The translations under genes and the position numbers were made by a program. From NCBI RefSeq assembly GCF_010983895.1, contig NZ_CP048836.1:496001-560000 (forward strand): DNA of 64,000 nt. The letters run 5' to 3'. Source of the stretch: Nitrogeniibacter mangrovi. GTDB lineage: Bacteria > Pseudomonadota > Gammaproteobacteria > Burkholderiales > Rhodocyclaceae. Below are positions 18,404 to 37,167 of the stretch, in pieces (the first letter of the stretch is position 1; each line of letters begins with the position of its first letter). The notes beneath the pieces were generated by a model. That model saw only the letters and a list, made by a program, of their open reading frames with translations. It was not told where the DNA came from and searched no databases.

Positions 18404-19206
18404 GCACCGAGTTCGAGACCCTGACGATCGAGTGTGACGGCGGCGTCGCCACCGTGTGGATGAACCGCCCGGACAAGCACAACGCTTTCAACGCAACCCT
18501 CATCGCCGAGCTGGACGCGGCCTTTGCTGCGCTGGAGGCGGACGACACGGTGCGGGTGGTGGTGCTCGCCGGCCGCGGCAGGAGCTTCTCCGCCGGGGCG
18601 GACCTGAACTGGATGAAGGCGCAGGGCGAGGCCGGCGAGGCGGCCAACGTGGCCGACGCGCGCCGGCTCGCCGACATGCTCGCGCGCCTGGCGACGCTCT
18701 CCAAGCCGACCATCGCGCGGGTGCATGGCGCGGCGCTGGGCGGGGGCATGGGGCTGGCCTCGGCCTGCGACATCTGCATCGCCTCGGCGCGGGCGGTGTT
18801 CGCCACCTCGGAGGTGAAGTTCGGCCTCACGCCCGCCACCATCAGCCCCTACGTGCTGCGCGCCATCGGCGCGCGTCAGGCGCATCGCTACTTCCTCAGT
18901 GCCGAGCGCATCGATGCGACCCGCGCCGCCGCGCTGGGGCTGGTGCATGAGCTCGTGGAGGACGATGCGGCGCTCGATGCCAAGGTGGCCGAACTGGTCG
19001 CCGCGATCCTGCAAGGCGGACCGCAGGCGCAGGCGGCAGCCAAGGACCTGATTCGTGCCGTGGCCCATCAGCCGGTGACCGAGGCGGTACTCGACGACAC
19101 CGCCCGGCGCATCGCCGCGCTGCGTGCGACGCCGGAGGCGAAGGAAGGCCTGGCCGCGTTTCTGGAAAAACGGCCGGCGGCGTGGGTGCCCGGACGTGGG
19201 GCGTAG
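18400..19206 (+). CDS. liuC: Enoyl-CoA hydratase, probable methylglutaconyl-CoA hydratase
   Basis: This 268-residue crotonase-fold enzyme probably hydrates 3-methylglutaconyl-CoA to HMG-CoA. MNRPDKHNAFNATLIAEL, SFSAGADLNWM (oxyanion hole), HGAALGGGMGLASACDICIAS and TSEVKFGLTPATISPYVLRAIG are present. SPYV at the active-site tip is typical of gamma-carboxygeranoyl/methylglutaconyl-CoA hydratases. Its ATGA start overlaps the PaiB-like stop. Specificity is inferred from its place between the two MCCase subunits. Confidence 0.9.
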   Translation: MSTEFETLTIECDGGVATVWMNRPDKHNAFNATLIAELDAAFAALEADDTVRVVVLAGRGRSFSAGADLNWMKAQGEAGEAANVADARRLADMLARLATLSKPTIARVHGAALGGGMGLASACDICIASARAVFATSEVKFGLTPATISPYVLRAIGARQAHRYFLSAERIDATRAAALGLVHELVEDDAALDAKVAELVAAILQGGPQAQAAAKDLIRAVAHQPVTEAVLDDTARRIAALRATPEAKEGLAAFLEKRPAAWVPGRGA

Positions 19207-19290
19207 CCCGGCCGAGCGCAGCGACGCCGGGAACGCGGTGCCATCGAGGCGCGGTGGCCCCGGCGTCGGGCCTGCGGCCCTGGGCCGGGC
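19204..19290. repeat. Paired palindromic intergenic repeat (BIME-like)
   Basis: GTAGCCCGGCCGAGCG and the near-inverse CCTGGGCCGGGC bracket a GC-rich stretch in which GACGCCGGG is also mirrored by CCCCGGCGTC. The two halves can fold on each other. It begins inside the hydratase stop codon and separates the hydratase from the duplicated MCCase alpha start region, so it may attenuate or stabilise the operon mRNA. Confidence 0.6.
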
Positions 19291-19314
19291 GACGTGAGAA
19301 TGAGAGGGGGAGAC

Positions 19315-19440
19315 ATGTTTGAAAACATCCTGATCGCCAACTGCGGTGACCCGCCGCGAAGCGGCGCAGCGACGCAGTCACATCGCCATGTCCGCATCGC
19401 GGACTCAGGCGATTTTGCCGCGGAGGGGCACCATGTTTGA
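19315..19440 (+). CDS. Mini-ORF 1 from the duplicated MCCase alpha start (41 codons)
   Basis: ATG follows a good AGAGGGGG site. The first ten residues MFENILIANC copy the start of MCCase alpha ([10 protein letters not shown]), then the frame runs into an unrelated tail GDPPRSGAATQSHR and stops. Its TGA overlaps the next ATG in ATGTTTGA, so translation could be coupled to the second copy. The peptide is probably a by-product of tandem duplication, although a leader-peptide role cannot be excluded. Confidence 0.4.
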   Translation: MFENILIANCGDPPRSGAATQSHRHVRIADSGDFAAEGHHV

Positions 19441-19551
19441 AAAAATCCTGATCGCCAACCGCGGTGACCCGCCGCGAAGCGGCGCAGCGACGCAGTCACA
19501 TCGCCTTGTCCGCATCGCGGACTCAGGCGATTTCGCCGCGGAGGGGCACCA
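19315..19551 (+). repeat. 118-bp tandem repeat: two full units before the intact MCCase alpha start
   Basis: The segment starting at ATGTTTGAAAA recurs at 19315, 19433 and 19551 with an exact 118-base period. The third copy runs into the real gene. Each full unit contains the first 11 codons of MCCase alpha, a hairpin-prone insert (CGCCGC/GCGGCG arms, GTGAC/GTCAC ends) and a new GGAGGGG ribosome site. Copies 1 and 2 differ at only a few bases, so the duplication is recent or maintained. The period is not a multiple of three, so each unit shifts the reading frame. Confidence 0.95.
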
Positions 19552-19558
19552 TGTTTGA
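19433..19558 (+). CDS. Mini-ORF 2 from the duplicated MCCase alpha start (41 codons)
   Basis: This second copy begins [12 protein letters not shown], identical to the true MCCase alpha start through residue 11, then diverges into PPRSGAATQSHR and stops at a TGA inside the ATGTTTGA that starts the real gene. A GGAGGGG site precedes it. Because its stop overlaps the MCCase alpha start, ribosomes finishing this peptide could reinitiate on the enzyme gene. Function as a leader is speculative. Confidence 0.4.
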   Translation: MFEKILIANRGDPPRSGAATQSHRLVRIADSGDFAAEGHHV

Positions 19559-19594
19559 AAAAATCCTGATCGCCAACCGCGGCGAAATCGCCTG
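19524..19594 (+). promoter_or_regulatory. 18-bp inverted repeat flanking the MCCase alpha start codon
   Basis: CAGGCGATTTCGCCGCGG upstream is the exact reverse complement of CCGCGGCGAAATCGCCTG within codons 9-15 of the enzyme gene. The 35-base loop holds the rest of the ribosome site and the ATG, and the arm covers the first two G residues of GGAGGGG. In mRNA this hairpin could hide the start from ribosomes unless the upstream mini-ORF is being translated. Confidence 0.6.
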
Positions 19595-21566
19595 CCGGGT
19601 CATCAAGACCGCGCGGCGGATGGGCATCAAGACCGTGGCGGTGTATTCCGAGGCCGACGCCAGCGCCCGCCATGTGCGCCTGGCCGACGAGGCGGTGCTG
19701 CTCGGGCCGGCGGCGGCCCGGGAGAGCTATCTGGTGATCGAGCGGATCATCGCCGCGGCGAAGGAAACCGGTGCCCAGGCCATCCACCCGGGCTACGGCT
19801 TCCTGTCCGAGAACGAGGCCTTCTGCCATGCCTGCGAGGCGGCCGGCATCGTCTTCATCGGCCCGCCGGTGAGCGCCATCCATGCCATGGGCTCCAAGTC
19901 CGAGGCCAAGAAGCTGATGGAAGCGGCCGGTGTGCCGCTCACGCCGGGCTATCACGGCGACGACCAGGACCCGGCGCTGCTGGCGAGCGAGGCCGAGGCC
20001 ATCGGCTACCCGGTGCTCATCAAGGCCGCGGCCGGCGGGGGCGGCAAGGGCATGCGCCTGGTCGAGCGCGCCGAGGACTTCGCCGACGCGCTCGCCTCCT
20101 GCAAGCGTGAGGCGGCCAGCAGCTTCGGTGACGACCATGTGCTGGTGGAAAAGTACGTGCTCAAGCCGCGCCACATCGAGATCCAGGTGTTCGGCGACCG
20201 CCACGGCAACTGCGTCTATCTGTTCGAACGCGACTGCTCGGTGCAGCGCCGCCACCAGAAGGTGCTCGAAGAGGCGCCGGCCCCCGGCATGACCCCGGAG
20301 CGGCGCGCCGCCATGGGGCAGGCCGCGGTCGATGCGGCCCGTGCGGTGGGCTACGTGGGCGCCGGCACGGTGGAGTTCATCGCCAGCCCGGACGGCAGCT
20401 TCTATTTCATGGAAATGAACACCCGCCTGCAGGTGGAGCATCCGGTCACCGAGATGATCACCGGGCTCGACCTGGTCGAATGGCAGCTGCGGGTGGCCGC
20501 CGGCGAACCGCTGCCGCTGGCGCAGGAGCAGCTGCAGATCCGCGGCCATGCCATCGAGGCGCGCATCTACGCCGAGGATCCGGACAAGGGCTTCCTGCCC
20601 TCCACCGGCACCCTGGTGCACCTGTCGCCGCCGGTCGAGGGCCTGCATGTGCGGGTCGACACCGGGGTGGAGGAGGGCGATGCCATCAGCCCCCACTACG
20701 ACCCCATGATCGCCAAGCTGATCGTGTGGGACGAAGGCGAGGGCTGCCGTGACCGGGCGCGCTCGCGCCTGCTGCAGGCGCTGGCCGAGTACCGCATCGT
20801 CGGCGTCGCCAACAACGTCGGCTTCCTCTCGCGTCTGGTGGCCTGCCCGGCGTTTGCCAGTGCCGATCTCGACACCGGCCTGATCGAACGGGAGAAGGCC
20901 TATCTGTTCCCCGAATCACGGCCCACGCCCGACGAGGTGTGGCAGGTGGCGGCGCTGGCGGAACTGCTGCGCGAGAGCGCCCGCGGCCGGGCCAGGGCGC
21001 GCCGCGACGAAGATCCGGGCTCGCCCTGGCATGCACGCGATGGCTGGCGGCTCAACGCCACGGCGCGGCGCGACCTGATCTTCCGCCTCGGTGAGACCGA
21101 GCAGGTGGTGACGGTGGCCTACCGCCCCGACGGCTACACCCTCAGCCTAAACGGCCGGCGCGCCGAGGCGCGCGGGCAGATGGACGAACGCGGGGTGATG
21201 CGCATCGACCTGGACGGGCGGCGCATGGACGCCACCGTGGTGGTCGCTAGCGAGAAGCGCCATGTGTTCGTCAATGGCCGTGCCTGGCAGCTCACCCGGG
21301 TCGATCCGCTGCACCACAGCGGCGAGGGCGGCGGCGCCGAAGGGGCGCTGGTGGCGCCCATGCCGGGCAAGGTGATCGCGCTGGTGGCCGCCGCCGGGGC
21401 GACGGTGGCCAAGGGCGCGCCGCTGCTCATCCTCGAGGCCATGAAGATGGAGCACACCATCGCCGCGCCGGCGGCCGGCACCCTCAAGGCGCACCGCTTC
21501 GCCGTGGGCGACCAGGTGGGCGATGGGGAGGAACTGGTGGAATTCGAGATCACGCCGTCGGTCTGA
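19551..21566 (+). CDS. liuD: Methylcrotonoyl-CoA carboxylase, biotin carboxylase/BCCP (alpha) subunit
   Basis: It carboxylates its own biotin with bicarbonate and ATP for transfer to 3-methylcrotonyl-CoA. In its 671 residues, [24 protein letters not shown] starts the biotin carboxylase domain, and [13 protein letters not shown] is the ATP-binding glycine loop. FLEMN-type residues are seen in [19 protein letters not shown]. The C-terminal biotinyl domain ends with EAMKMEH, the lysine (about residue 632) being the biotin site. The third copy of a 118-bp repeat supplies the start. An upstream in-frame GTG would add 29 junk residues from the repeat and is rejected because GGAGGGG precedes this ATG. 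Confidence 0.95.
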
Positions 21567-21622: not shown

Positions 21623-21658
21623 CCCCCACCCCCACCCCCACCCCCACCCCCACCCCCA
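21623..21658 (+). repeat. CCCCCA hexanucleotide repeat, six copies
   Basis: Six perfect CCCCCA units lie between MCCase alpha and the acyl-CoA synthetase gene, just before its CCGGAGGAG ribosome site. The opposite (template) strand reads TGGGGG six times, so it could form a G-quadruplex. Such a simple repeat is prone to copy-number slippage. It is outside both reading frames. Confidence 0.95.
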
Positions 21659-21676
21659 CACAACCGGAGGAGATTC

Positions 21677-37100: not shown

Positions 37101-37167
37101 CACCCCCGATGCCGTGCGCATGACAGCCGCACCCCCGATGCCGTGCGCATGACAGCCGCACCCCCGC
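37101..37167. repeat. 29-bp tandem duplication with partial third copy
   Basis: The unit beginning CACCCCCGATGCCGTGCGC is present twice in exact tandem (37101-37129, 37130-37158), followed by CACCCCCGC of a third. It lies between the VOC and dienelactone hydrolase genes in non-coding sequence. It contains GATGCCGTGCGCAT, itself close to a palindrome. Confidence 0.85.

Follow-up and report, generated by a model that had tools for sequence, protein, structure and literature searches.

The steps that commit carbon to fatty acid synthesis, and to the catabolism of leucine and propionate, are catalysed by biotin carboxylases, and to our knowledge little is understood of how the levels of biotin carboxylase subunits are set post-transcriptionally. 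In translational attenuation of the ErmCL and CatA86 type, a short upstream ORF is combined with an RNA hairpin at the Shine-Dalgarno/start region. The cassette described here likewise consists of a short upstream ORF and a hairpin in that region, but the part that is conserved in it is a copy of the target enzyme's N-terminus, and it was mostly found within operons. The T4 gene 60 bypass and the mobile mitochondrial byp elements comprise a coding start, a structured insert and a matching downstream codon. The cassette carries the same elements; unlike in those systems, its downstream copy has its own start codon and Shine-Dalgarno region and is under stronger selection. Tubulin mRNA is autoregulated through the nascent N-terminus, which acts there by eukaryotic mRNA decay; one explanation considered below would also use a nascent N-terminus as the signal, as an analogy only.

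Translational coupling by termination-reinitiation has been described for overlapping gene pairs (PMC6728339). As in such pairs, the stop of the first ORF of the cassette overlaps or adjoins the second start; unlike in those pairs, the first ORF is a leader of about 41 codons with a beginning copied from the second gene, whose own start is enclosed by a covarying hairpin. The mark of a coupled ORF pair, a stop of ORF1 near the start of ORF2 that is kept in evolution, was found in the sequences of all 100 loci compared here. The GeneTack survey contains a cluster named 'Biotin carboxylase' with 128 genes from 44 genera, which was labelled translational coupling and in which the ATG of ORF2 was at most 10 nt from the stop of ORF1 in 75% (PMC3711429). 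This cluster may or may not include the present loci; the available text of the survey gives neither sequences nor a description of a leader (PMC3711429). Within the open library and the terms searched, no description of the cassette was found.

Organization of the Repeat Upstream of liuD

The window was the whole stretch of 64,000 nucleotides analysed from the genome of Nitrogeniibacter mangrovi. A sequence-only reading of it had claimed a 118-base tandem triplication over the start of liuD, two mini-ORFs of 41 codons with a TGA overlapping the next ATG, and the alpha subunit of methylcrotonyl-CoA carboxylase as the product of the gene, and all of these were borne out. TRF identified a tandem repeat at 19314-19582 with a period of 118, 2.3 copies, 97% matches and zero indels. 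The three tandem starts (19315, 19433 and 19551) followed an exact 118-base period; the first two opened 41-codon frames, each with its stop TGA within the next ATGTTTGA, and the third opened liuD with 671 codons. The liuD protein contained biotin carboxylase domains together with the BT_MCC_alpha and biotin domains. The same reading had described the start of liuD as repeated twice, which holds for codons 1-11 only (ATG ... AAC CGC GG), while the remaining 85 or so bases of each unit form a structured core and a Shine-Dalgarno region. Part of the core was the reverse complement of gene codons 9-15. The order within a unit was start copy, GAC, a core of small hairpins (often with GNA triloops), a complementary strand running into the Shine-Dalgarno site and, after a short spacer, the gene. 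No family was found for mini-ORF 2 in NCBIfam or Pfam. The features are listed in Table 1.

Start sites of such genes are easily annotated wrongly: the longest mechanical ORF of liuD began within the repeat, at 19464, which is 87 bases before the likely start. Other repeats were observed in the window. A GC-rich palindromic sequence (GTAGCCCGGCCGAGCGCAGCGACGCCGGG...) was located between liuC and the repeat (19203-19297), with copies of 78-79% identity elsewhere in the same genome and of 82-87% in several congeners, and a fragment resembling it was found within the cassette of G002 (L065). Between liuD and a gene for an AMP-binding protein of the acyl-CoA synthetase type, CCCCCA was repeated perfectly six times (21623-21659), and a perfect 29-bp tandem repeat of 2.3 copies was present at 37101-37166.

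Table 1. Features of the doubled cassette and of liuD in the window.
Feature	Position	Strand	Evidence or remark
Shine-Dalgarno region of mini-ORF 1 (GAGAGGGGGAGAC)	19302..19314	+	sequence only
Mini-ORF 1 (MFENILIANCGD...HHV-stop), 41 codons	19315..19440	+	stop TGA 19438-19440 within next ATGTTTGA
Mini-ORF 1, start copy departing from liuD at K4N and R10C	19315..19440	+	reading frames
Core 1 and Shine-Dalgarno region of mini-ORF 2	19348..19432	+	model R1, 87.1 bits, 19348-19424
Mini-ORF 2 (...HHV-stop), 41 codons	19433..19558	+	stop within ATGTTTGA of liuD
Start copy of liuD codons 1-11, coding-constrained part of the cassette	19433..19465	+
Core 2 (structured, GAC first, without codon rhythm) and Shine-Dalgarno region of liuD	19466..19550	+
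Model match of core 2	19466-19542	+	R1, 90.8 bits
Hairpin H1, GCCGC-GAA-GCGGC	19471..19483	+	stem mean 5.5 bp vs 3.2 shuffled, 100 loci
Small hairpin H2, GAC-GCA-GTC (weak)	19489..19497	+	3.2 vs 2.7 bp shuffled
Hairpin H3, GTCCGC-ATC-GCGGAC	19508..19522	+	6.5 vs 4.4 bp shuffled
Lock hairpin H4, 5' arm CAGGCGATTTCGCCGCGG	19524..19541	+	overlaps the Shine-Dalgarno site
Shine-Dalgarno site of liuD, GGAGGGG	19540..19546	+	partly within the H4 arm
Lock hairpin H4, 3' arm CCGCGGCGAAATCGCCTG, liuD codons 9-15	19577..19594	+	18/18 pairs with 19524-19541
liuD, methylcrotonyl-CoA carboxylase alpha (biotin-containing) subunit	19551..21566	+

Distribution of the Cassette and Its Target Genes

Among nine congeners, two (G008 and G002) carried one unit at liuD and seven carried none. 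An alignment of six mini-ORFs (A1) was used to search the family. Matches at E ≤ 3.5e-8 were obtained in 66 of the 297 family genomes, that of N. mangrovi included, and the best match in the other genomes was 5.4e-5 or weaker, in the range of ordinary biotin carboxylase (BC) starts, or was absent (five genomes). The number 66 is a lower bound, because a diverged cassette (L080) scored as weakly as ordinary BC starts. The 83 family loci scanned gave 74 distinct pairs of mini-ORF and gene after duplicates (L077 and L131), loci at contig ends (L059, L071, L124 and L129) and loci with diverged mini starts (L080, L117 and L119) were left out; leaving out the last three biases the counts toward conservation, as does the start pattern required for accepting a pair. 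The spacing from start to start in the 74 pairs was 118 in 36, 121 in 22, 115 in 6 and other in 10.

A covariance model (R1) was built from 72 cores beginning with GAC, with the start copy excluded so that the search was not limited to conserved starts. In the order sample, 30 of 399 genomes matched at E ≤ 0.01 and 25, including N. mangrovi, at E ≤ 1.2e-6. In each of the 25, the match was located at the start of a BC gene and followed a start copy; 20 of them were new and five were already among the family loci. The five weaker matches (E up to 0.01) were without a start copy. Nine of 398 genomes in the phylum sample matched, of which four were real (G000, G463, G495 and G735), and N. mangrovi alone of 369 genomes in the class sample matched at E ≤ 0.001. 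Across the order, phylum and class samples, no site outside BC genes was found at E ≤ 1.2e-6. Together with the lack of a second core match better than E 0.09 in the single 4.24-Mb contig of N. mangrovi, this led us to reject a dispersed mobile repeat of the REP or MITE type. At least eight loci in named hosts were confirmed among at least 593 stretches with the pattern, and three of these were left out as duplicates of L053, L103 and L113; the hosts included Azoarcus taiwanensis, Methyloversatilis, Candidatus Propionivibrio, Variovorax, Acidovorax and Paracidovorax. Of the 100 distinct loci, 74 thus came from the family (the window included), and the wider searches and the named hosts contributed 21 and 5, respectively, so that 99 further distinct measurable loci share the arrangement of the window. 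Judged from these genomes, the cassette occurs mainly in a single order, to which betaproteobacteria of the Azoarcus and Variovorax types belong.

In a plasmid collection, the core of L054 gave no match, and the start region of the window gave 417 records, with the 20 matches listed aligning from about the gene start onward. Rfam covariance models run on five loci gave five weak matches, all far under the gathering scores.

Tandem units in series were identified in N. mangrovi, G099, G140, G147, G342 and G571, and in G282 the first of two mini-ORFs continued in frame into the second. The doubling in the window, with two mini-ORFs in place of one, may be a tandem duplication. In G182 (L119, 536-1015), four tandem diverged mini-ORFs (MSDRMLIANRGV-like) with 118-base spacing preceded a BC gene. 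In the cassette of Paracidovorax citrulli (L177, 3001-3123), codon 12 encoded E instead of D and the first hairpin held gene-like codons; this is perhaps an older or re-copied form.

The cassettes preceded liuD-, accC- and pccA-type genes and one urea-carboxylase-like gene. By the best match among three references, which gives a class and not a firm identification, 45, 30 and 25 of the 100 loci were assigned to LiuD, AccC and PccA, respectively. One of the 45 in the LiuD class, L162 from another order, best matched urea carboxylase with a 497-residue piece that scored below the model cutoff, the fetched stretch covering under half of that model. Judged by end motifs of the neighbouring genes, the gene directly upstream ended like accB in 29 of 30 loci of the accC class, like pccB in 24 of 25 of the pccA class, and like liuC or liuB in 29 of 45 of the liuD class.

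Signs of Translation of the Mini-ORF

The first stop in the mini frame lay no more than 20 nt from the gene start in all 100 loci; in the other two frames, this was so in 1 and 10 loci. The core itself contained a stop in the mini frame of 2 loci and in the other frames of 33 and 17 loci, respectively. The spacing fell into the three phases in 91, 5 and 4 loci, and loci of differing phase used another stop, such as a TGA in the arm of L078 or TGATG in L067. A programmed frameshift at GTT TGA was rejected, since that site is lacking in loci with other stops (TGATG, a TGA within the arm, CAC TAA), in which the stop is nevertheless close to the start.

Codon 2 was TTT in 85 of 100 genes and in 43 of 100 mini-ORFs, and TTT at gene codon 2 creates the stop of the mini-ORF. 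In the main phase, 42 loci had TTC in the mini-ORF and TTT in the gene and 2 loci had the reverse (two-sided p 1e-10, with the kinship of loci ignored). Since TTT is also common without the cassette (15 of 24 liuD-type starts, counted by eye), the paired contrast of 42 to 2 is the real evidence. In L148, L151, L152 and L154, gene codon 3 was ACT and mini codon 3 was ACC; ACT alone yields TAA.

In the 36 loci with a spacing of 118, the entropies at the first, second and third codon positions were 0.19, 0.20 and 1.33 for codons 2-11 and 0.87, 0.67 and 0.75 for codons 12-37. When each mini-ORF was compared with its own gene over codons 2-11, 303 synonymous and 53 nonsynonymous differences were counted in 1000 codons, while 55-62% nonsynonymous is the neutral expectation for a mini-ORF beside a gene that changes synonymously only. 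The set found by the core alone (R1) gave 67 synonymous and 14 nonsynonymous differences in 23 pairs, two of which compared mini-ORF with mini-ORF. In 37 nearest same-class pairs, the synonymous and nonsynonymous differences were 121 and 41 for mini-ORFs and 91 and 11 for genes, so that amino-acid variation was greater in mini-ORFs; some of these pairs may hold non-orthologous cassettes because they were matched greedily by gene class and some cores are dissimilar (0.635 for L087/L092 and 0.776 for L050/L104). From 121/41 against 91/11, selection seems to act while the mini-ORF is a mini-ORF and to be weaker than on the gene. A Shine-Dalgarno-like site preceded 92 of 100 genes but only 69 of 100 mini-ORFs. 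By the codon differences, mini codons 2-11 are under purifying selection; this, the position of the stop and the preference at gene codon 2 are indirect signs that the mini-ORF may be translated. Recent copying or gene conversion alone gives no synonymous excess, and therefore the peptide or its making seems to matter.

The Hairpin Around the Gene Start

In the lock hairpin H4, the end of the core pairs with gene codons 9-15 and encloses the gene start. The best stem score between arm and gene had a mean of 15.0, compared with 12.2 when arms were matched with genes of other loci (103 entries, three of them duplicates). Over all 96 distinct segments in one fixed register, 81.5% of cells were paired, compared with 76.1% when shuffled, and 130 cells had changed on both sides, compared with 55.8 when shuffled (maximum 75 in 500 shuffles); slid controls were paired at 38-44%. 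A set of 59 of the 96 segments, hand-picked for clean geometry, was paired at 90.8% with 94 double changes against 35.6, but it omitted some segments of the same register, and the count over all 96 is the figure of choice. With the register fitted per locus, pairing was 0.912 and fell to 0.866 with genes shuffled within class (100 loci). The arm also tracked the paralogue, with AGCGCG against GCGCT in accC and CAGGCG against CGCCTG in liuD and pccA. H4 was weak (stem score ≤ 12) in 16 of the 96 segments, including loci with a TGA in the arm (L078, L094, L101 and L105) as well as L145, L147 and L149. Changes on both sides were also found at 7 of 10 consensus pairs of H3. Six chosen loci folded at -34 to -46 kcal/mol with z from -4.4 to -7.6, and region 19433-19604 of the window folded at -80.5 with z of -4.5. 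The covariation and folding energy of H4 point to a conserved RNA structure at the ribosome site, as expected of a regulatory leader. The arm paired with mini codons 9-12 at 0.812, compared with 0.786 when shuffled, a pairing that hardly exceeds the shuffled value and is weak evidence for the mutually exclusive alternative structure of an attenuator switch.

Discussion

We propose, with a probability of roughly 0.7, that the repeat at liuD consists of a conserved cis-acting leader cassette in duplicate; the cassette would be specific to genes with a biotin carboxylase domain, and its translation would be coupled to the BC start. Comparison of the loci shows a predicted short ORF whose first 11 codons are those of the downstream gene and whose stop is on or next to the start codon of that gene, and shows selection on this ORF and on the first part of its peptide. 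The tail of the mini-ORF holds both the Shine-Dalgarno region of the gene and a strand complementary to codons 9-15, and therefore the gene start lies in the loop of H4. With H4 closed, free ribosomes would initiate the gene poorly; a ribosome translating the mini-ORF would open H4, terminate at ATGTTTGA and reinitiate on the gene, so that BC synthesis would be coupled to translation of the leader. The two leaders in series in N. mangrovi would form a two-step relay. The sequence-only reading had offered a translational relay or an accident of replication. The relay is favoured, indirectly, by the nearness of stop and start, the coding selection, the Shine-Dalgarno-like sites and the covarying hairpin, while the single accident did not stand. 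The absence of the cassette at liuD in seven of nine congeners argues against the coupled leader, because it makes the cassette dispensable there. The smaller number of Shine-Dalgarno-like sites before mini-ORFs, the weak H4 in 16 of the 96 segments and the greater amino-acid variation of mini-ORFs speak against it as well.

The exact 118-bp period and the 97% matches in N. mangrovi are what would be expected of a functionless repeat, produced by simple tandem duplication through replication slippage or by a faulty assembly. As an account of the cassette as such, this is ruled out: independent genomes and several paralogous genes carry it, which refutes both the single accident and the assembly error, and covariation, stop positions and coding selection also stand against a functionless copy. 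We regard it as highly improbable. A similarly slight chance is given to ribosome hopping, in which ribosomes would start at the mini-ORF and jump 118 nt from its Gly11 to that of the gene, so that the mini-ORF would encode the true N-terminus. The coding selection on mini codons 2-11, the nearly invariant GAC and hairpins that follow codon 11, and the third base of codon 11, which agreed in 60 of 100 loci against 37 expected, would suit such a bypass, but agreement of third bases above expectation was also found at other codons, for example 7 and 8, and mini-ORFs carried changes such as R10C and N9K. Bypass in the strict sense was rejected, since it has no independent downstream start, whereas here the downstream copy had ATG or GTG in 100 of 100 loci (a count favoured by the acceptance pattern), its Shine-Dalgarno-like site in 92, and stronger coding selection than the mini-ORF.

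The main rival is a selfish, BC-specific insertion cassette, which would enter BC starts by homologous exchange between BC paralogues or relatives, would be harmless because the start and the Shine-Dalgarno site are restored, and would make its host dependent through H4. Its patchy presence within genera, its several gene classes and several loci per genome (three each in G311 and G305), and its tandem copies (four in G182) would agree with this, and local copying is indicated by residue 3, at which 82 of 100 mini-ORFs agreed with their gene where 34.7 were expected within classes. The pccA- and liuD-class copies of G213 (L068 and L092) have a common unusual H1, but the same H1 stem is carried by L049, the pccA copy of a genus-mate of G213. 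In many nearest pairs, core identity tracked gene identity (0.98/0.98, 0.97/0.97), which argues for vertical descent; the restriction to BC genes at E ≤ 1.2e-6 and the coding selection on the mini start while a mini-ORF also speak against a selfish element. We consider this explanation unlikely.

The coupled leader remains the preferred explanation. Coupling accounts for the position of the stop and not for the match of codons 2-11 to the enzyme. The likeness of the leader peptide to the enzyme N-terminus may matter in itself, perhaps as a signal of nascent-chain feedback. A more specific proposal, tentative and on balance doubtful, is a self-mimic leader, in which the nascent carboxylase N-terminus would be read by the enzyme, a partner subunit or a chaperone, and this would decide the opening of H4. 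If it were true, nascent-chain autoregulation in bacteria would be common to acetyl-CoA, propionyl-CoA, methylcrotonyl-CoA and perhaps urea carboxylases, and the cassette would have spread between the genes of these carboxylases.

Since liuD occurs with none, one or two cassettes inside one genus, the effect of the cassette is directly testable. The cassette, which precedes biotin-dependent carboxylase genes in many betaproteobacteria and looks made to pass ribosomes on to the enzyme start, is seemingly an undescribed kind of gene control. Such a small element, with its copy of an enzyme's start, its own coding selection and a matched hairpin surrounding the true start, would represent a novel mode of wiring gene expression.
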